The notes below the pieces were generated by a model, which worked only from the letters and a program-made list of their open reading frames with translations, was not told the DNA's origin and ran no database searches. A stretch of 21,947 bases of DNA from a virus: the IMG/VR virus record IMGVR_UViG_3300046018_000061, positions 1-21,947 of that record, one strand, 5' to 3'. The position numbers and the translations under genes were made by a program. Shown here in pieces: positions 10,752-21,947 of the stretch (positions are counted from its first letter, which is position 1; every line of letters starts with the position of its first letter).

Positions 10752-13700
10752 ATGGCAGACGGCGTCATCATCCCCGACGACCTGAAGCCTCTGGCGGGAA
10801 AGTACGGCGATGCGCGCACCGACATCGTCATCCCCGACGACATCAAGGAGCTGGCCGGCAAGTACGCCCCGCCTCCTCCCCCTCCGCCCAAGCCGCCCGG
10901 CATGCTGTCGCGCGCCGCATCCTCGCTGGCGACCCTGGCCGATGCAGTCCCCGAGCCGCGCCCGGTTGGTCAGCGCAGGGGTGGCATGCGCGCCGAGGTG
11001 CAGCCCTACGTTGCTCCGGATGCCCCTCCGGTGGGCCTGGCTGCAGCCGGCGCAGCCCCGCGCCCGGCCGCACCTTCGGATCCCTCGAGCGCGCTGTCCG
11101 ACATCGACTGGCAGGCCACGACCGCTCCGGCGCAGATTCAGACTGCACCGGGGTCTGTCCTTGACCGGCCGGCGGATCCGAACCTTTCATTCAAGGATGC
11201 GAGCGCGCAGCAACTGGCCACCAACGCTCGAGTCCAGCAGGCCAAGGCTGACAACGCTGCGGACACCAAGATCGGCCCGATCCCCAAGACGCTGGCCGAC
11301 AACATCCAGAGCCCGGTGGGTCAGGGCCTGGCTGATCTCGCGATCGCCTACGGCCAGTCCTTCCCTGAGACGCTGAAGCTTGGCGCCGACATCCAGCAGA
11401 TGGTGACGCTTGGAGAAACCAAGCCGATGAGCGATGCCCTGAAGGCGCATAGCGAGTCGATGCGCGGCAAGCTTTCCTCCGACGTGCTGCGCCAGGCGTC
11501 GGAGTTTCAGGATCTGCTGAGCGACAGCCGAGTGAATGCCGCGACGGTAGGCGGGTACCTCATCAAGCACCCACTGTTCACCGCCACTTTGGTCCTTCCA
11601 TCGATTGGTTCGATGGGGGTTGGATACGGATCCGCAAAGCTTGGATCAACCCTCATGGAGCGCGCAGCCTCAAGGGCTGGAGCAAGCGCTGCGGAGATAG
11701 CAACCGCTGCCCGGCGAGGCGCCATCGTCGGATCCAACGTCGGCAATGCCGCGATGAACGCGGGCAGCAACTACGACGAGACGAACGGAAGCCCGCTGCA
11801 AAAACTGCTGTCGGCTGCAGGAGCGGCAGCCGGAACCATGGCGGTCGGCCACCTGACTGAAGGCGGAGTCGCTGCGCAGCTCGCGCACAACGGCGATCGT
11901 CCGATGTCAATGAACCCGGTGGCTGATATCGCCGGGCGGGTCGGCAAGGCCGTGGGTCGGGAAGCGGCACAGGAGGGCGGCGAGCAGCTAAGCCAGGACT
12001 CCAGCCAGGCCGTGGCCGAGGGCAAGCCGCTGGATGCGAACACCCTACTGAAAAGTGCAACGGCCGCGGCGATCCAAGGCGGCGTCATGGGTGGCATGGC
12101 CTCCCCGGGCATCGGGCGAGGCGTCGGCATTCCGATGGATGGCCTGCACGCAGCCATCGACGAAGCCGGCCGCCGGGCAGGCATGGGCCCGAAAGCCACG
12201 CAGGCTCTGCGCGAAGCCGTCATGAACATGGAGCCGGATCAGGCCATCCCATTCGTGGAGCGTGCGCTTGGGCACATGGAGCGGTCCGGTCTGGCCAAGC
12301 GACCCGGCGCCGTCACTACGTTCAAGGCCGAGGTCCAGAAGGTGGCCGACGAGCGGGCGCAGGCCAATCCCGCGGCCGCAGCGCCTGGCGCTTCGACGGC
12401 CAGCACCGATGACTACACCGGCCTGGACACGCCGAGCACCATCCCGCAGATCACCACGCCGGTCGACGAAGCCGCGCATGCCGCAGCCACCAGCCCGACG
12501 AACGGACGGCCGGAGCCGACTGACGCGCAGAAAGAGGCCGGCAACTACGCCAAGGGCCACACGCGAATCGGCGGCATGGACATTGCCATCGAGAACCCGC
12601 AGGGCTCTGTGCGCCGCGGCGTGGATTCCGATGGCACGCCGTGGGAGTCGACCGTGGCCGCGCACTACGGCTACGTCAAGGGGACGCTGGCCGGCGACGG
12701 CGACCATTCGGACGTCTTCATCAAGCCTGGCACACCGGCCGACTACATCGGCCCGGTGTTCGTCATCGACCAGATGGATCCGAAGACGGGCAAGTTCGAC
12801 GAGCACAAGAGCGTGCTTGGCGCCAGCACCGAGGATGAGGCGCGGCGCCTGTATCTGGCCAACTACGACGCCACCGGACCGAAACGGATCGGCGCGATCA
12901 CTCAGGTTCCGCTCCCGGCTTTCAAGAGCTGGGTCAAGGACGGCACGAAGCGCAAGCCACTGGGAGACGTGAGTGAGTACAAGCCTGACCTACACGATTC
13001 TGACTCCCAACCTGCTGGATCTGGTGATGAACCAGCACCTGCTTCTGTGGGAGGCAGCCTGGCTGATGGACGAGTGGCTCCTGACTCCGGAAAACCAGAG
13101 CAGGGAGCTGCCCCAAGCCCTGTACGAGGCAGCGAGCAAGCTGCACCTGCTGAGCCTGGAAGCCAGCGAGACAAGGCACTGAATGACCTGAGCGCCGGCC
13201 TCAAGGAGCTGGGTGGCGTTCTTCAACCGAAAGCAGTGGCACCGGAGCAGGGCCCAAACACGCAACCCCAAGGCGCCCAATCGCCGGCTGCCACTGCCCC
13301 TACCAATGCACCAGACACCACCGGAACCGAAACCAAAGCGCCCGAAGCCGCGGCAGGAAAAGCGCAAGCGCCGACAGGAGCTGCAGGAGCAGCAGGATCC
13401 GCAGCGGCTGATACCGGAGCCCGACCCGCTCCCGTGGAAGCCGGAGGGGTAAAGCCGGCGCCCGAAGTGGGCGAGGTCTACACCATCGACGGCAAGCCGC
13501 ACACGGTATTCCGGGTTTCCAAGAACAGCGTGACGTTCAAGACCGGGCAAGGCCAGCGCGCGGTGATGTTCAAGTCCGATGCGTGGAAGCAGGCCGCCAA
13601 GGTCGAGCCGACCGCTCCGGCCGCGCCAAAGGTCTACAAGCTCCGCAGCCAGGCCGAGAAAGCCCGCGACGAGCTGGGCAACACGCACCGGATGCGCAAG

Positions 13701-15500
13701 GTCCAGGGCGGCTACATCCTGCGCCCGTCCACCGAGAAGGAGCAAGCCGCGGCCGCGCGCAACGGTCAGCGCCTGGCCGGCGGCAGCAGCCCGGATGTCG
13801 ACAAGGATTCCATGCTGACGGCGATTGCCAAGCTGGGTGGCCTGCACATCGACGAGAAGCCGGACACCATTGGCGAGGGCAACAAGAACGTCGGCGGCAA
13901 GATGCTGTTCACCAAGAACGGCATGCGCCTGGACGAAATGGCCAACGGCGCATTGAGCGAGTTCGGCTACATCCCGGCAGACCACCGAGGCGACCCGACG
14001 AACTGGCTGCGCAGCGCCATCCGTGACGAGTTCATGGGCGGCACCAAGCACCACAGCGACCAGGGTGTCGGCTGGATGGAGTCACGATCAGGCCAAGCAG
14101 AGAGCCTGAGCGATGAGGAAATCCAGGCCCGCCGGGATGACTACGAGCGCCAGCAAGAGGAAGCGCTGTCCGACTTCACCCCCGACGAGCTGGACGAGGT
14201 TGGCTACACTGCCGGCTCGCCTGCGGCACAAGCCCTGACCGAGCAGATGCTGCGCGATGCAGAGGCGGCCGGGATCGACACCGAGACTCTGCGCGATGAT
14301 GTCGTCAGGGCCACCGAAGGACTATCGAACGATGAGTACCACGCCCAACTCCAAGCCGCCCTCGCTGAAGCTCTCGCCCAGAACGGCCGCGCTGGCTCAA
14401 ACAATGAGCCCCAAGGATCGCGAGCAAGCGCTGAAGATCACGGCCAAGCTGCTGGCAATCAGAGCCAGAAAGAAGGCCGCGGCGAACAAGCCGTAGACGC
14501 CCCGGCGCTGGACCTCGAGGCCCAGACGCCAGCCGACCTGAAGGACAAGGCAGACCGCGAGGAAGCAGCTACCAAGGCCGAGCGCGCCAAGAAGGCCGCC
14601 GAGCAAGAGCGACTTCGCAAGGAAGCCGAGGCCCGGGACCTGAAGGCCCGCGCCGATCAAACGGTCGACGATTTTCAGCTGGGCCAGGATGCAGACCAGC
14701 AGATGAGCGGCATGGGCAGCCTGTTCGATGAGCCGGCTGCCGCTCCGACACCAGCGCCAGCAATCTCGCCACAGCCTGGCGAAATTCCCGCCAACGTCAA
14801 GTCCCGCCTGAAAGCGGCGCTCGAATACCTGCAGGGCATCCGTGAGGAGGTAGACCGCGTCAAGAAGGTTGGCGGCTCGCAGGATGTGCGTGTCACCTGG
14901 GAGAAGTACGCGACTCAGGTGGCCAACACCGAGGAGCGGGTCGACCAGATGGAGGCCAAGGCCAAGGAGCTGGGCGTGGACATCGCGCCCGCCGTGGCTG
15001 AACTTGGTGGCAGGCCTACGTTCGATGATGTTCGTTCGGCCACCGCCAACCACCCAGATGCAGCGCAGCCAGACTCATACGGCGAGGAGCCGACTTTCAC
15101 CGAGGCTCAGGCCCGCAAGCAGATCGAATGGCGCGACTTGGGCCAAAAGGACGGCACCAAGACCCATGCGATGTTTTTCTACACGCGGCCCGCTGACAAG
15201 GGCACCGGCCGCGCCATGGGCTACGGCAACGTGCAGCTGTTCCAGCGCTCATCCGGGTGGAAGGTTGACGGCGAAGGAAATACCATCCCGTCACTGGCCG
15301 ATGCCAAGAAGGCAGCAATCGACGCGGCCATCCCGAAGTTGCGCGAGCAGGGGTGGATCTCCGCCGCCAACGAGTCCACCGCCAGGACCAATATCGATGC
15401 CAGCAACACCAACGAGGGCCGAGGCAGGCCTGAAGAACTGATCGCGCTGCGCAAACGGCAGTCCATTCTCAAGTCACTGATGGAGTGCCTGCAATCATGA
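10752..15500 (+). CDS. Giant polyvalent internal protein with pyrophosphatase-like domain
   Basis: This 1582-residue multidomain protein is probably packaged and delivered with DNA. It starts with a duplicated 15-residue motif (5-19 and 25-39, core IPDD), then a Pro-rich linker. Helical regions with Gly/Ala-rich hydrophobic stretches follow (about 258-295, 348-380, 435-465), as in ejected envelope-channel proteins. A domain at about 590-738 resembles inorganic pyrophosphatase (InPase of polyvalent proteins): HYGYVKGT, then DGDHSD (649-654), close to the DxDxxD metal-binding signature. Next are a linker (741-901), an SH3-like barrel (905-946), a small helical domain (about 1017-1097; LTAIAKLGGL), a second linker (1194-1248), a coiled coil (about 1260-1308), another helical segment, and a C-terminal mixed domain (about 1451-1536). 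AGGAG at 10738-10742 marks the start. Both linkers carry nested ORFs. The pyrophosphatase match is by motif only. Confidence 0.8.
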   Translation: MADGVIIPDDLKPLAGKYGDARTDIVIPDDIKELAGKYAPPPPPPPKPPGMLSRAASSLATLADAVPEPRPVGQRRGGMRAEVQPYVAPDAPPVGLAAAGAAPRPAAPSDPSSALSDIDWQATTAPAQIQTAPGSVLDRPADPNLSFKDASAQQLATNARVQQAKADNAADTKIGPIPKTLADNIQSPVGQGLADLAIAYGQSFPETLKLGADIQQMVTLGETKPMSDALKAHSESMRGKLSSDVLRQASEFQDLLSDSRVNAATVGGYLIKHPLFTATLVLPSIGSMGVGYGSAKLGSTLMERAASRAGASAAEIATAARRGAIVGSNVGNAAMNAGSNYDETNGSPLQKLLSAAGAAAGTMAVGHLTEGGVAAQLAHNGDRPMSMNPVADIAGRVGKAVGREAAQEGGEQLSQDSSQAVAEGKPLDANTLLKSATAAAIQGGVMGGMASPGIGRGVGIPMDGLHAAIDEAGRRAGMGPKATQALREAVMNMEPDQAIPFVERALGHMERSGLAKRPGAVTTFKAEVQKVADERAQANPAAAAPGASTASTDDYTGLDTPSTIPQITTPVDEAAHAAATSPTNGRPEPTDAQKEAGNYAKGHTRIGGMDIAIENPQGSVRRGVDSDGTPWESTVAAHYGYVKGTLAGDGDHSDVFIKPGTPADYIGPVFVIDQMDPKTGKFDEHKSVLGASTEDEARRLYLANYDATGPKRIGAITQVPLPAFKSWVKDGTKRKPLGDVSEYKPDLHDSDSQPAGSGDEPAPASVGGSLADGRVAPDSGKPEQGAAPSPVRGSEQAAPAEPGSQRDKALNDLSAGLKELGGVLQPKAVAPEQGPNTQPQGAQSPAATAPTNAPDTTGTETKAPEAAAGKAQAPTGAAGAAGSAAADTGARPAPVEAGGVKPAPEVGEVYTIDGKPHTVFRVSKNSVTFKTGQGQRAVMFKSDAWKQAAKVEPTAPAAPKVYKLRSQAEKARDELGNTHRMRKVQGGYILRPSTEKEQAAAARNGQRLAGGSSPDVDKDSMLTAIAKLGGLHIDEKPDTIGEGNKNVGGKMLFTKNGMRLDEMANGALSEFGYIPADHRGDPTNWLRSAIRDEFMGGTKHHSDQGVGWMESRSGQAESLSDEEIQARRDDYERQQEEALSDFTPDELDEVGYTAGSPAAQALTEQMLRDAEAAGIDTETLRDDVVRATEGLSNDEYHAQLQAALAEALAQNGRAGSNNEPQGSRASAEDHGQAAGNQSQKEGRGEQAVDAPALDLEAQTPADLKDKADREEAATKAERAKKAAEQERLRKEAEARDLKARADQTVDDFQLGQDADQQMSGMGSLFDEPAAAPTPAPAISPQPGEIPANVKSRLKAALEYLQGIREEVDRVKKVGGSQDVRVTWEKYATQVANTEERVDQMEAKAKELGVDIAPAVAELGGRPTFDDVRSATANHPDAAQPDSYGEEPTFTEAQARKQIEWRDLGQKDGTKTHAMFFYTRPADKGTGRAMGYGNVQLFQRSSGWKVDGEGNTIPSLADAKKAAIDAAIPKLREQGWISAANESTARTNIDASNTNEGRGRPEELIALRKRQSILKSLMECLQS
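10764..10868 (+). repeat. Duplicated 15-codon motif at the polyvalent N terminus
   Basis: Codons 5-19 (VIIPDDLKPLAGKYG) and 25-39 (IVIPDDIKELAGKYA) are near copies separated by five codons; the DNA shares CATCCCCGACGAC in both. The duplication lies at the extreme N terminus of the 1582-residue protein, directly before a Pro-rich linker, and could be a tandem docking or packaging peptide. Confidence 0.85.
12973..13182 (+). CDS. Nested ORF 1, overprinted in linker of polyvalent gene
   Basis: This encodes 69 residues in the +1 frame relative to the host gene, starting at GTG with GGGAG at 12962-12966 (6 nt spacing). The protein is Leu-rich and acidic with four Trp/Tyr-containing amphipathic segments (HLLLWEAAWLMDEWLL, LPQALYEAASKLHLLSLE), unlike the Arg/Ser/Pro-rich shadow products elsewhere in this frame. 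Only 13 of 69 codons end in A/T, while 43 of 70 overlapping host codons do, so the G/C third-position bias sits in the nested frame. The host frame here is a Gly/Pro/Ala/Asp/Ser linker (741-810). No family is recognised and no clear membrane helix is present. It is followed after 30 nt by a second nested ORF in the same frame. Real translation is likely but unproven. Confidence 0.65.
   Translation: MSTSLTYTILTPNLLDLVMNQHLLLWEAAWLMDEWLLTPENQSRELPQALYEAASKLHLLSLEASETRH
13213..13452 (+). CDS. Nested ORF 2, basic Pro-rich, overprinted in same linker
   Basis: This predicts 79 residues in the +1 frame, GTG start with AAGGAG at 13203-13208 (4 nt spacing). The N terminus (MAFFNRKQWHRSRAQ) is basic; the middle is Pro/Lys/Arg-rich (PEPKPKRPKPRQEKRKRRQE), followed by Gln-rich and Pro/Trp segments. 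Sixteen of 79 codons end in A/T against about 42 of 80 in the overlapping host frame, so the codon signal again favours the nested frame. The host frame reads as an Ala/Pro/Gln/Thr linker (821-900). Composition is less protein-like than nested ORF 1, so low-complexity shadow coding remains possible. If real, the strong positive charge suggests nucleic-acid or acidic-partner binding. No family or membrane or lipobox signal is visible. Confidence 0.48.
   Translation: MAFFNRKQWHRSRAQTRNPKAPNRRLPLPLPMHQTPPEPKPKRPKPRQEKRKRRQELQEQQDPQRLIPEPDPLPWKPEG
14332..14496 (+). CDS. Nested ORF 3, small basic protein overprinted in linker
   Basis: This encodes 54 residues in the +1 frame from ATG 14332, with GAAGGA at 14316-14321 (10 nt spacing, rather long). 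The N-terminal half is Ser/Pro/Thr-rich; the C-terminal half forms a basic amphipathic helix (SPKDREQALKITAKLLAIRA) ending in a Lys/Arg/Ala tail. Ten of 54 codons end in A/T versus 25 of 55 in the host frame, a weaker shift than for the other nested ORFs. The frame is open further upstream, but those codons give Arg/Pro/Ser-rich shadow sequence, so ATG 14332 is the better start. The host frame here is an Asn/Gln/Gly/Ala/Ser linker (1194-1248). Family unknown. Confidence 0.5.
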   Translation: MSTTPNSKPPSLKLSPRTAALAQTMSPKDREQALKITAKLLAIRARKKAAANKP

Positions 15501-17390: not shown

Positions 17391-18431
17391 ATGCTGCTTT
17401 CGCTGCGGTCCCTGGTAGAGACACCAGTAAACAGTGTCTCTGGGACCGTAGCAAATGCAGCCAGCGCCACCCTCGTTGATGTTCTAGCAGGTACACAGGC
17501 AAATGTCGGTGTTGTCGATGGCGCTACCACCTCGACGACCTTAGATGCGGTAGCAGGGACCCAGCTCTACATCGGCGTTGTTGCGGCGGCCACATCCGCC
17601 ACAGCTCTTTCCACGGTAGCTGGTGCGCAGACCATCATCGGGGTGGTTGCAGCAGCCACCACTGCCACAGCGCTTTCGACGGTCGCTGGCACGCAAGGCC
17701 TGGCCGGCACCGTTGCAGCAGCGGTTTCCGCCACGACTCTTTCGACACTGGCGGGGACTCAGGCGGGGATTGCCACCGTCGCATCCGAGGTATCTGCAAC
17801 GGCGCTGTCCACCCTGGCTGGCGCTCAGACCTACGTCGGTGCAGTAGCTTCTGCCACTTCGGCCATAAGCCTCTCGACGGCCGCCGGCACACAGACCTAC
17901 GCGGGCGCCGTTGCATCGGCTGTCACTGCAACAGCCCTGAGCACGCCAGCAGGGGCAGGGGCGGGGAGCGCAGCAGTCGCTCCCGCGCAGAGCGACACGC
18001 AGCTTTCGACGGTCGCCGGCACTCAGGCCAATGTCGGATCAGTTGCTGGCGCTGCGTCCTCGACAACGACCAGCACCCCAGCCGGCACCCAGGCCTACGC
18101 CGGCAGCATTGCTGCGGCGTCTTCGGCAACCGTACTTTCAACGGTCGCGGGCACTTTCAGCTCGTCACCCAGCGCGGCAGTCGACAGCCTCTCGAGCTCT
18201 ACCGCCGTGGATTCTGTGGCGGGGACTCAGTCCTACGTTGGGTCCGTCGACTCCGCCGTCAGCGCCACGATCCTGAGCCTTGTCACCGTGCCGGGTGGAG
18301 ATCCGATCCAGCAGCAGGTCTTCTACGCCGATGACGACACCCCGCTGAATCGCCTGGATGACCTGATCGATGACGAAGCGTTTCACATCGCGCTTGCCAC
18401 AATCATGAGTGGAGTTCTATGCCAAGTCTGA
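17391..18431 (+). CDS. Repeat-rich fibre-like protein (22-residue repeats)
   Basis: The 346-residue protein is almost entirely Ala, Thr, Ser, Val and Gly. After a short N terminus (1-33) come twelve tandem units (34-299), eleven of 22 residues and one of 24, with the pattern G-T-Q-x-x-x-G-x-V-A-x-A-x-S-A-T-x-L-S-T-x-A. A charged C-terminal tail follows (ADDDTPLNRLDDLIDDEAFH). Regular small and beta-branched residues suggest a beta-solenoid or trimeric beta fibre. There is no convincing Shine-Dalgarno before ATG 17391, which starts 21 nt after the previous stop, so the exact start is uncertain. Its last 13 nt overlap the start of the helicase-methyltransferase gene. It could be an adhesin-like tail fibre or a capsid fibre; no receptor-binding head is recognisable. 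Confidence 0.68.
   Translation: MLLSLRSLVETPVNSVSGTVANAASATLVDVLAGTQANVGVVDGATTSTTLDAVAGTQLYIGVVAAATSATALSTVAGAQTIIGVVAAATTATALSTVAGTQGLAGTVAAAVSATTLSTLAGTQAGIATVASEVSATALSTLAGAQTYVGAVASATSAISLSTAAGTQTYAGAVASAVTATALSTPAGAGAGSAAVAPAQSDTQLSTVAGTQANVGSVAGAASSTTTSTPAGTQAYAGSIAAASSATVLSTVAGTFSSSPSAAVDSLSSSTAVDSVAGTQSYVGSVDSAVSATILSLVTVPGGDPIQQQVFYADDDTPLNRLDDLIDDEAFHIALATIMSGVLCQV
17490..18287 (+). repeat. Twelve tandem 66-bp units (one of 72 bp)
   Basis: The units encode the 22-residue pattern beginning GTQ or GAQ and ending LSTxA. Ten 66-bp units run from 17490, then a 72-bp unit lacking the GTQ core (GTFSSSPSAAVDS), then a final 66-bp unit. The protein pattern is much better kept than the DNA, so the array is old and under protein-level selection rather than a recent slippage product. 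Confidence 0.9.
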
Positions 18432-21400
18432 CCACTTGCGTTAAACGCGCCGGCTCTGCCCTCTCAGCCGAGGACAAGAACGCCATCCTCGAGCGCTCCA
18501 GAGCCCTACGCAGCGAGGGCCTGGACGCACAAGAGGCCGCGCTCAAGGCCGTGCGTGAGCAGTTGTCTGCCGTGCAGTCCTTGCTTGGCATCGCTCCGCA
18601 AGACGACCAGGCGCCTGCATCCCTGCCCGCGACCAAGGCGGCATCCGGGGACAGCGAGGAGGTCAAGAAGGCCAAGGCCGATCTGGCGGCAGGCCTGGGC
18701 GACCTGGCGGCACTGTTCAGCAAGTCGGCCCGGTCCAACATCGTGCCCGAGGAGGAGCAGCGCCTCCTGCCGATCCTGACCAAGGTGTTCGATGCGGCTT
18801 TCCGGCTGGGATACCTGAAGTTCAAGGACGCATCCAAGTTCGTGCTCGACCAGATTCGCGGCGCGTTGGGCAACGAGGCGGCGGATGCCATCACCATCGA
18901 TCATTTGGCCGGCGCTTATATCGGCATGGCGGGTCGGTACAAAGACCAAGGCGCCAGCACAAGGAAGGAAGTTGTCTCGGTTGAGGACAAGGCGGAGATC
19001 GAGTCCCACCAGCCCGAGGCGGATAATTCACCCCAGGAGCCCGACCATGTACCAGACACCCCAGCCGCTCTGGAACGAGATCGCCAAGACGCAGGAGCTG
19101 AAGACGCCCCTGTGGCGGGAGATGTTCAAGGCGACCAATCCTCAGGAAGCGCTCCAGCCCCTGGAGGATCAGCTTCAAGCGCGCGGAGCGGACGCCCGAG
19201 TGATCCGAGCGTTCCTCCTCGTCGACCCCCTCCTCAAGGAGAATCTGGCGATCAGCCGGTTCATCGAGGCGACGGGGCGGGACAGCCTTCGCTCTGGGCT
19301 CCCCGAGATCCTGACGGTAAACGAAGCGACGACCCTGGCATCCCAGGAGTTTCGCCTGAAACCCTCTCAGCAGAAGATGTTGCAGACGCTGCTGAAGGCG
19401 GAATGGACGATGCCGCCAAGCGCAGCGCCCAGCGAGAAGCCGACAAACTCCCAGTAAAGCAGGGCGACCTCGCCAACATCCGGGCCACGCTGCCCTACCT
19501 GCTGCCCGGCCAGCAGGAGGATGTTCACTTTGCGGAGCAGCGGCTGTCAAAGCCTGATGGCTACGGCGTGCTGTTCACTAACGGCACTGGCACGGGCAAA
19601 ACTTTCCTCGCGCTTGGAATCGTCAAGCGCCATGACCGCCAGGGCAAGACCAACACCCTGATCCTGGTGCCGGACGGCAAGATCATGTCCGACTGGGTCG
19701 ACTCCGGCCGGGCGCTGGGCCTGACGCTGACGCCGCTGGAGGACACCAAGGACGCCGGCCGCGGCATCACCATCACGACCTACGCCAACGCGGGCGACAA
19801 CGACTCGCTGGCCACCCGGGCGTGGGATCTGGTTGTCCCCGACGAGGCCCACGGCCTGATGCAGTCGGCTGACGGCGGAATGACCAAGGCCCTCGAGGTG
19901 GTGCGTGCCATCACGCTGCATCCGGATGGCAAGTACCAGCGCTTCGACATGCTGCACCGCCCCGAGATCGAGCGGCGCACGGAGCTGGGCAAGCAGATCG
20001 ATGCGAACAACAAGCTTGCCAGCAAGGACGACACCATGGATGTCATGGTGGATTCGCTGCGCAAGGAGAACGCCAGGCTCCAGGCCGAGTGGAATGCTCT
20101 GAACGCCAAGCTCGAGGCCGACAAGGCGCGGATCTTCAAGCACGTCGAGGACAACCAGGGCGCCGCGCGCCCACGCCTGGCTGCGCTGTCTGCCACCCCG
20201 TTCGCCTATGTGCCGACGATCGAATGGGCGCAGGGGTACGTCTTCGACTACGGCCCCGAGCCCAAGGACCGCGGCTACAACACGCCGAGTGCGAGCCAGC
20301 AGTTCTTCATGCAGCACTTCGGCTACCGGATGCGCTACGGCAAGCTCACCAAGCCGGAGGCAGCGGTCGACAGCGGGTTGCTCGAGCGCCAGTTCAACAC
20401 CTGGCTGAAGAAGTCCGGCTCGCTGTCCGGCCGGATGCTGGACGTTCATGCCGACTACGACCGGCGGTTTATCCTGGCCGAGAGCAAGGTTGGCAACGAG
20501 ATCGACCGGGCCCGAGAGTGGATCCGCGAGCAGGCCAAGGCGCTGGACGAGCAGCACAAGAAGGAAGACAAGGAGACGGCGCACAACGGATTCAGCTTCC
20601 TGATGGCCGATCTGGCGAACAATTTCGAGGGCCCGCTTGCCCACCTGATGCGCCGCTACCTGCTGGAGGCGATCAAGGCCAAGGAGGTCATTCCGCACGT
20701 CCGGCAGCACCTGGCCATGGGCCGCAAGGTGGTGGTGTTCCACGACTTCAAGCAAGGCGGATCCACCAACCCGTTCCGGTTCACCCCGCGCACTGCGCCG
20801 GGCCCAGGCAGTGAACAGGTCGACGTGCCGGCGGCGCGCGAGGCCTACAACCAGGCGGCCAATGCGTTCAACAAGGAATTTCCGGACCTTGCCGGCGACC
20901 AGCTTCTGGCCGACCTGATCTCCCCGGTGGCGAGGTTCGTGCGCGAGTTCCCCGATGTCCTGCTGATCAATGGCGACCAGAAGAAGTCCGACCTTTTGGC
21001 CCGCTACCGGCGCTTCCAGTCCGATGACAGCGGGCCGATGGTCATGCTGGTGCAGTCGGACAAGAACAAGGGATGGAGCGGCCACGACACCACGGGCAAG
21101 CACCAGCGCGTGCTGTTCAACCTGGGCCTGCCGACGCAGCCGACCAAGACCATCCAGACCGAGGGCCGAATCTACCGCACTGGCCAGGCCTCGGATGCGA
21201 TGTTCCGATACCTGAACACCGGCACCAACTGGGAGCGCTGGGCCTTCGCTTCGACCATCGCAGAGCGCGCCGGCACCGCCGAGAACCTGGGCATGGGCGA
21301 GCAGGCCCGCGCCCTGAAGGACGGGTACATCGCGGCTTTCGAGGAGAGCGGCGACTTCCCGGCTGGCCATGAGGGTGAGGGCAAGGGCGGCAAGGAGCGT

Positions 21401-21947
21401 GACCGCCTGGCCAATTCAGCCATCAGTGAGTACGACCGGGCCAAGGCTTTCTACTGGGCCACCGAGAAGAAGAGCGACCGCACCAAAGCCCGCGAGGGTG
21501 CCGACTATTTCGCCACGCCTGAGCCGCTGGGCCTGAAGATGACGCAGTGGCTGAACCTGCGCGGCGGCGAGGCATCGCTCGAGCCGAGCGCCGGGCATGG
21601 CGCGATCGCCCGCTGGCTGCCGGACAACACCGTCCGCACCGCCATCGAGCCAAGCACCGAGCTGGGCTCGCGCCTGGCGCTGGTGTTCGACGGCAAGATC
21701 ATCCGGGGCAATTTCGATGACCTGCACGTCGTCAACAAGTTCGACGGCGTGGCGATGAATCCCCCGTTCGGATCCGATGGGCGCACCGCGGTCGACCACG
21801 TTGCCAAGGCAGCTACGCACCTGAACGAGGGCGGGCGCATCGTGGCGCTGATCCCCGAGGGATCCACGAACGAGAAATTCGACAAGTGGTTCTACGAGGA
21901 AAGCAAGCGGCCGAGCAAGCCCCTCTACACCCTGGACCGCCTGGGCC
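18419..21947 (+). CDS. Polyvalent helicase-methyltransferase, anti-restriction-like, 3' partial
   Basis: At least 1176 codons, open to the window end. It starts at ATG 18419 with GGAG at 18411-18414 and overlaps the previous gene by 13 nt. Two helical domains familiar from phage polyvalent proteins (15-49 and 84-175) precede a Gly/Pro/Asp linker (210-328). An SF2 helicase follows: Walker A GTGTGKT (389-395), DEAH (475-478), SAT (591-593) and motif VI QTEGRIYRTGQ (913-923), closest in style to SNF2/strawberry-notch ATPases. Then a class I N6-adenine methyltransferase-like domain: YFATPEPL, motif I EPSAGHG (1055-1061) and motif IV NPPF (1114-1117). P1 DarB pairs such domains to protect injected DNA from restriction, so that role is suggested. 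In the +1 frame the linker carries a nested ORF. ATG 19403 could serve as an internal start of a shorter form. Confidence 0.85.
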   Translation, partial: MPSLTTCVKRAGSALSAEDKNAILERSRALRSEGLDAQEAALKAVREQLSAVQSLLGIAPQDDQAPASLPATKAASGDSEEVKKAKADLAAGLGDLAALFSKSARSNIVPEEEQRLLPILTKVFDAAFRLGYLKFKDASKFVLDQIRGALGNEAADAITIDHLAGAYIGMAGRYKDQGASTRKEVVSVEDKAEIESHQPEADNSPQEPDHVPDTPAALERDRQDAGAEDAPVAGDVQGDQSSGSAPAPGGSASSARSGRPSDPSVPPRRPPPQGESGDQPVHRGDGAGQPSLWAPRDPDGKRSDDPGIPGVSPETLSAEDVADAAEGGMDDAAKRSAQREADKLPVKQGDLANIRATLPYLLPGQQEDVHFAEQRLSKPDGYGVLFTNGTGTGKTFLALGIVKRHDRQGKTNTLILVPDGKIMSDWVDSGRALGLTLTPLEDTKDAGRGITITTYANAGDNDSLATRAWDLVVPDEAHGLMQSADGGMTKALEVVRAITLHPDGKYQRFDMLHRPEIERRTELGKQIDANNKLASKDDTMDVMVDSLRKENARLQAEWNALNAKLEADKARIFKHVEDNQGAARPRLAALSATPFAYVPTIEWAQGYVFDYGPEPKDRGYNTPSASQQFFMQHFGYRMRYGKLTKPEAAVDSGLLERQFNTWLKKSGSLSGRMLDVHADYDRRFILAESKVGNEIDRAREWIREQAKALDEQHKKEDKETAHNGFSFLMADLANNFEGPLAHLMRRYLLEAIKAKEVIPHVRQHLAMGRKVVVFHDFKQGGSTNPFRFTPRTAPGPGSEQVDVPAAREAYNQAANAFNKEFPDLAGDQLLADLISPVARFVREFPDVLLINGDQKKSDLLARYRRFQSDDSGPMVMLVQSDKNKGWSGHDTTGKHQRVLFNLGLPTQPTKTIQTEGRIYRTGQASDAMFRYLNTGTNWERWAFASTIAERAGTAENLGMGEQARALKDGYIAAFEESGDFPAGHEGEGKGGKERDRLANSAISEYDRAKAFYWATEKKSDRTKAREGADYFATPEPLGLKMTQWLNLRGGEASLEPSAGHGAIARWLPDNTVRTAIEPSTELGSRLALVFDGKIIRGNFDDLHVVNKFDGVAMNPPFGSDGRTAVDHVAKAATHLNEGGRIVALIPEGSTNEKFDKWFYEESKRPSKPLYTLDRLG
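19047..19457 (+). CDS. Nested ORF 4, well-formed protein overprinted in helicase-gene linker
   Basis: This encodes 136 residues in the +1 frame, ATG with AGGAG at 19035-19039 (7 nt spacing). The product looks like an ordinary folded helical protein: PLWNEIAKTQELKTPLWREM, a Gln/Leu-rich helix, RVIRAFLLVDPLLKENLAIS, and LKPSQQKMLQTLLKAEW. Only 23 of 136 codons end in A/T, versus 72 of 119 in the overlapping host linker; after 19403 the bias returns to the host frame. The frame is open back to 18885, but that part is Arg/Ser/Pro-rich shadow. The last 55 nt overlap the host's M329 region leading into the helicase. No family is recognised. It is the best-supported nested gene here; a small anti-defence or virion-assembly protein is possible but unproven. 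Confidence 0.75.
   Translation: MYQTPQPLWNEIAKTQELKTPLWREMFKATNPQEALQPLEDQLQARGADARVIRAFLLVDPLLKENLAISRFIEATGRDSLRSGLPEILTVNEATTLASQEFRLKPSQQKMLQTLLKAEWTMPPSAAPSEKPTNSQ

Follow-up and report, generated by a model that had tools for sequence, protein, structure and literature searches.

Within the window analysed here, the 21,947 nt of IMG/VR virus record IMGVR_UViG_3300046018_000061, a 136-codon ORF lies wholly inside a giant ORF and in a different frame. This arrangement raises two questions: whether the same bases encode two proteins, and what the smaller one contributes to the phage if they do.

A small ORF inside a DarB-like giant gene

The features concerned are listed below, all on the + strand.

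18419..21946, +, continuing past the window end: giant DarB-like polyvalent host ORF (phrog_10691, phrog_5143)
19035..19039, +: AGGAG Shine-Dalgarno (SD) site of the nested gene
19047..19457, +: 136-aa nested gene of family A with an ATG start, offset by +1 from the giant ORF
19460..20449, +: superfamily 2 helicase segment of the giant product (ResIII, E 7.6e-8), which served as independent bait
21490..21946 (bounds approximate), +: first part of the host protein's DNA methyltransferase domain (PHROGs families; Pfam MTS weak)

Judged by its sequence, the host ORF is a DarB-like polyvalent protein in which a helicase and an adenine methylase are combined in a single giant chain, the methylase being cut by the window end. 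The methyltransferase matches were obtained on 19460-21946 with DNA methyltransferase families of PHROGs and with Pfam MTS, and a Pfam search of the host protein upstream of the overlap gave no significant match. The genes preceding the giant ORF code for virion proteins, among them the major head protein and an internal one, so the locus belongs to the late region of an apparently podovirus-like phage. The window also holds a second giant of 1582 aa with an inorganic pyrophosphatase-like domain (10752-15500; PF18823, E 9.2e-46), and a 346-aa protein made of repeated Ala/Ser/Thr-rich units that matched no family (17391-18431).

The first-pass annotation had described a 136-codon gene with an AGGAG site, set in a Gly/Pro/Asp spacer directly before the helicase. 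These points agreed with our findings: the ORF is present with its ATG start, the AGGAG motif precedes it, the overlapped stretch (host codons 210-347) is rich in P, A, D, G and S, and the helicase begins immediately after the overlap. The 83% of G/C-ended codons cited in its favour was also reproduced (83.1%), yet this value says little alone because the entire host frame reaches 81.9%.

The nested gene is conserved in relatives of the giant

With the nested protein as query, tblastn gave matches in 4 viral contigs and in 8 phage records representing 6 distinct phages (E 1e-13 to 1e-24), all of them in the +1 frame. The 8 records, out of 50,697 searched (E 3e-13 to 2e-16), belong to Skulduggery (2 records), Parlo (2), Ruegeria 45A6, Klebsiella ZX1, Vibrio D274 and 1.232.O, and exactly the same 8 were matched by the helicase segment. 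In all seven records examined, the match was offset by +1 from the frame of an annotated giant gene, and the nested gene itself was unannotated. A profile search extended family A to 50 viral loci and 2 bacterial contigs. The resulting 59 rows, the window included, comprised 52 distinct nested genes after 7 duplicates were set aside, and the host frame was open across the nested gene in 58 of them, the exception being L062. L029 also has an open host frame across the nested gene, but its host ORF comprises only 573 codons and seems to have been disrupted by frame errors.

Loci were also fetched with a helicase profile alone, so that the nested gene was no selection criterion; the profile itself had been built from loci carrying the nested gene. 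An alignment profile was used as bait, a scan with a single helicase sequence having yielded no match. The nested gene was present in 79 of the best 80 of 241 loci (E up to 4.4e-16), in every case with the identical +1 offset and with the giant frame open, and these 79 loci formed 71 clusters at 90% and 34 clusters at 50% identity. In the one locus lacking it, L123, the linker is an ordinary one whose two alternative frames both contain stops.

Three peculiarities were noted among the relatives. The exceptional L062 copy (L062:115-895, a Desulfamplus MAG contig) stands isolated among three CRISPR-like 35-nt repeats with a stop in its host frame, and is either a relic or an assembly chimera. 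L049 carries an intein-like insert directly after the Walker A motif GTGK of the giant's helicase (L049:10369-11358). In L127, an extra domain is inserted between the nested gene and the helicase (L127:2030-2964), and we take it, by eye, to resemble ADP-ribosyltransferase-type polyvalent domains.

Start signals and selection on both frames

An SD motif was found at 45 of the 52 nested starts as compared with 692 of 4682 other off-frame ATGs (15%). Mean pairing with the anti-SD sequence was -7.1 kcal/mol at nested starts and -2.3 kcal/mol at control ATGs, and local folding was weaker at the starts (mean -5.0 vs -8.7 kcal/mol). The nested starts of L054 and L058 are without any SD. In the helicase-bait set, drawn from the best 80 of 241 loci, 67 of 79 nested starts had one.

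Owing to the geometry of the overlap, nested position 3 coincides with host position 1. In 20 pairs near 90% identity, which are not independent of each other, substitutions in the overlap at nested positions 1/2/3 numbered 222/160/441, and identity was 0.886 for the nested protein and 0.771 for the host protein. In the downstream flank, the substitutions at host positions 1/2/3 were 883/768/1807 over 14 chosen pairs, a few of them poorly aligned (e.g. L049/L007). Substitutions in the overlap therefore concentrate at nested third positions, whereas the flanks show the opposite pattern, indicating that the nested protein is the more constrained of the two. When whole giant ORFs were scanned with sliding windows, non-wobble stretches were confined to the nested gene in 6 of 7 pairs, and nothing was flagged in the seventh, L013 paired with the window sequence.

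The host frame was assessed by recoding the 52 distinct nested proteins with local codon usage. Over the overlap, 256 (256.3) host-frame stops were expected and 1 was seen (that of L062); 51 of 52 host frames were open against 1.3 expected after recoding. Permutation of codons within each gene gave a weaker contrast, with 10.9 open host frames expected. By this measure, selection also preserves an open giant frame through the overlap. The disorder score of the host linker was 0.225 as compared with 0.216 for the recoded nested sequence, and was the higher of the two in 26 of 52 genes; the Gly/Pro/Asp look of the spacer therefore follows from the nested coding and needs no separate design. A helical nested protein encoded in the +1 phase suffices to render the host stretch hydrophilic, so the linker would cost little.

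Because long +1 ORFs are common in GC-rich giants (277 other +1 ATG ORFs of at least 85 aa occur far from the module in 1203 kb of giant ORFs), ORF length was not counted as evidence. Conservation, substitution pattern, SD sites and stop avoidance decide the matter, and they make it nearly certain that the nested gene is real and translated.

The product of family A is predicted to be helical

The AlphaFold2 model of family A (46 sequences) showed seven helices and a disordered tail, with a pLDDT of 76 and a pTM of 0.68. The first-pass annotation had held that a frame lost in relatives or a prediction of disorder alone would speak against the gene; the frame is kept, as described above, and the model, computed for the natural sequence alone, is ordered. 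Family searches gave nothing above noise in Pfam (best E 0.0079) or PHROGs (best E 0.0083), no match to PDB sequences at E up to 1, and none in NCBIfam for two family A members. Searches with the model were likewise negative: Foldseek returned none at E up to 0.001 from BFVD and PDB, and the best VIA-align score, a Z of 4.8, was to a designed protein, with no clear fold match. This lack of matches does not show that the fold is new.

Unrelated nested families occupy the same place

The Lastavirus phages ZX1 and LASTA/SopranoGao (ZX1 and LASTA being Klebsiella phages) have the N-terminal and C-terminal parts of the giant in common and differ in the central module, where only one short weak match was detected. 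Their sequences are alike through the SD and the nested ATG and then diverge: in ZX1 the ATG is followed by family A and a helicase-first module, and in LASTA by a second nested family, B, and a methylase-first module.

At E values no higher than 4e-10, family B was found in 21 of the 50,697 phage records, belonging to phages of Klebsiella, Erwinia, Pseudomonas, Vibrio, Agrobacterium, Sinorhizobium, Ochrobactrum and Microcystis; it had no match among plasmids. A further set, C, comprises 8 Burkholderia phage records. In the 22 B/C loci examined, an open host frame covers the nested gene, which is offset from it by +1, and in 20 of them the host frame spans the whole giant or the entire available stretch on both sides. 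In VvAW1 (L165), the host frame begins at the annotated gene, and in L168 the conserved nested ATG is missing. Over 20 B/C genes, 53.5 host-frame stops were expected and 0 seen, set C alone being expected to have only about 1 to 3 per gene.

Two database records of giants are irregular. In PBC5 (L167, AF448724), the giant gene is split by a frame break, and orf33 continues into the nested frame. Family B is matched by the last columns of PHROG 938 (2084-2185), so the nested protein seems to have been joined to that family through the PBC5 frame break. In Itty13 (L164, MW460249), the annotated CDSs and the giant ORF lie on opposite strands, the giant ORF being open throughout the available stretch.

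With the methylase-first module as bait, the best 80 of 358 loci were taken, and the family B profile matched in 73 of these, always in the +1 frame with the host frame open. An ATG start was present in 66 of the 73 nested genes, and an SD in 65 of the 66. At the same place, the other 7 of the best 80 loci have ATG-initiated +1 ORFs of 88-203 codons; five are alike (set D) and two form set E, weakly like B. D and E comprise few loci, for which ORF length is weak evidence. Profile comparison revealed no relation of A with B or with C, and B and C were weakly related (E 2.7e-4, probability 42). By these comparisons, methylase-first giants carry nested genes that are unrelated to family A and lie in the same place and frame.

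Proposed role of the nested protein

In the mechanism that we propose, translation would begin at the nested SD and ATG inside the giant mRNA and yield a product of about 100 to 140 aa, modelled as all-helical, and ribosomes in the giant frame would read the same bases as a disordered linker. The small protein, made from the same message and at the same time as the downstream methylase-helicase module, would be the cognate partner of that module and bind it. It might hold the module in a packable or inactive state, or help to load it into the head, and the giant protein would then be ejected from the head with the DNA and protect it from restriction.

The first-pass annotation had suggested a partner or regulator of the helicase-methyltransferase. 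The gene itself is strongly upheld; the partner role is supported only indirectly, by a presence tied to the module and by the joint swap with it, and no fold match adds to this. The nested type follows the module type, including in the ZX1/LASTA switch, and on this basis we favour the view that the small protein is a partner of the module. That it serves specifically as a packaging or assembly helper is a more tentative suggestion. Against a partner, linkage within one gene would alone keep neighbours together, and interaction would be unnecessary.

This objection leads to the main competing explanation, that of an independent small gene (for anti-defence or takeover, for example) residing in a tolerant linker and tied to the module by genetic linkage only. 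The near equality of observed and recoded disorder is consistent with it, since a nested frame that forces a hydrophilic host linker anyway would find an easy home there. In L127, L114, L137 and L138, moreover, an extra domain separates the nested gene from the helicase, so contact need not be local. Linkage accounts less readily for the pairing of family A with helicase-first modules (79 of the best 80 loci), of B or other families with methylase-first ones, and for their joint switch between ZX1 and LASTA; free cargo would also be expected outside giants, where the L062 copy is the only stray seen. We therefore regard an independent gene as rather unlikely, though the most serious competitor of a partner.

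For a selfish insertion that leaves the host frame uninterrupted, there is a precedent in the out-of-frame HNH gene within the ShiLan insertion of a phage methylase (PMC11855218). Such an insertion is a very improbable origin here: no endonuclease domain was found in the Pfam or PHROGs searches of family A, the gene is near-universal at one place rather than patchy, and it has clear SD sites, which the ShiLan authors did not find in theirs. Still less probable is a programmed frameshift that would make the nested frame an alternative extension of the giant protein. The shared strand, the constant +1 offset and, in the window, a nested frame open for 76 codons ahead of the ATG would suit it; however, a stop codon lies directly 5' of the nested ATG in 10 of 52 genes, where a fusion is therefore excluded and not needed, and within four codons in 18 of 52, and the ATG has its own SD and weak structure. 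Finally, a chance ORF in GC-rich DNA, for which the commonness of long +1 ORFs might speak, is scarcely credible given the amino-acid conservation, the reversed substitution pattern, the SD enrichment and the presence in 79 of the best 80 loci.

Returning to a partner of the module, a broader proposal can be made, to which we give even weight for and against: the DarB-like ejection proteins of podophages would be a two-frame, two-component system, in which each module has its own nested partner, at least three unrelated families (A, B/C and D) independently took the same spot and +1 phase, and a module is exchanged together with its partner, as a single cassette downstream of an unchanging leader and start codon.

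Novelty and significance

Nested genes as a kind are already known, as is an out-of-frame HNH gene in a phage methylase (PMC11855218). Searches of open-access full texts, a set outside which most subscription journals lie, brought up no paper describing a gene nested in giants of the DarB-like type. As far as this literature goes, what is new is the nested family, its occurrence in nearly all DarB-like giants and the swapping of partner together with module in one fixed phase. A gene carried by nearly every giant of this kind that was examined is absent from the phage records examined, probably because annotation programs avoid genes inside genes. If the nested protein is a true partner of the methylase-helicase, giants expressed or studied without it lack a component, and virion proteomes merit re-searching. 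The reuse of the same place and phase by unrelated families also offers a natural test of why overlapping genes arise.

Comparison with known systems

The giant host protein is of the kind described as the polyvalent methylase-helicase dyad (Iyer et al. 2017, PMC5512222); by term search, the main text of that paper contains neither the word 'overlapping' nor a nested gene. The out-of-frame HNH gene of ShiLan (PMC11855218) resembles the present case in lying inside a phage methylase gene whose own frame is kept open. It differs in being a patchy homing insertion with a GTG start and no SD, whereas the genes described here are near-universal, start with SD and ATG, and match no nuclease.

Two further resemblances concern family B and not the family A of the window. 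TnpV (PF14198) was matched by 33 of 49 family B members at E up to 0.1 (best 3.6e-5), with listed scores below the Pfam cut-off, and was absent, at the same threshold, from the Pfam matches of 51 family A members. A likeness was also seen between the family B model and PDB 2apl (PG0816), which we take to belong to DUF1896 (PF08989), with a Z of 7.5 and an rmsd of 2.1 over 64 residues. This Z lies in a range for which the alignment tool states that the similarity may reflect no more than a common arrangement, and Foldseek gave the pair a probability of 0.91 but an E of 0.84; 2apl was not among the matches in a PDB sequence search with family B. Searches for TnpV and DUF1896 (PF08989) had no match in one genome, and none in 14 controls either, so they carry no weight.

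The closest parallel is found in phage P1, where the head-packaged methylase-helicase DarB is accompanied by a small head protein encoded beside darB (PMC9024508; P1 record). This protein, Ulx, has a mass of 17 kDa and is entered with the function 'Aids DarB localization' (PMC9024508), and it is named with DarB at the end of the incorporation order (PMC12810830). A related giant, JC1 gp69, is reported from the virion with 51 unique peptides (PMC9144972). The P1 arrangement differs in that ulx is a separate gene downstream of darB, whereas the partner candidate is nested here, and in that P1 DarB begins almost directly with the methylase and lacks the long N-terminal part and the linker. P1 darB itself contains +1 ORFs. 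Ulx had no hit to the family A profile, and its values against the B and C profiles (E 0.03 to 0.05, bit scores about 0 to 1, in a one-sequence search with filters off) were not significant. Since Ulx is not detectably related, the comparison is a claim about how the proteins may work and not about membership; on these terms, P1 Ulx is the best analogue for the putative role of the nested protein.
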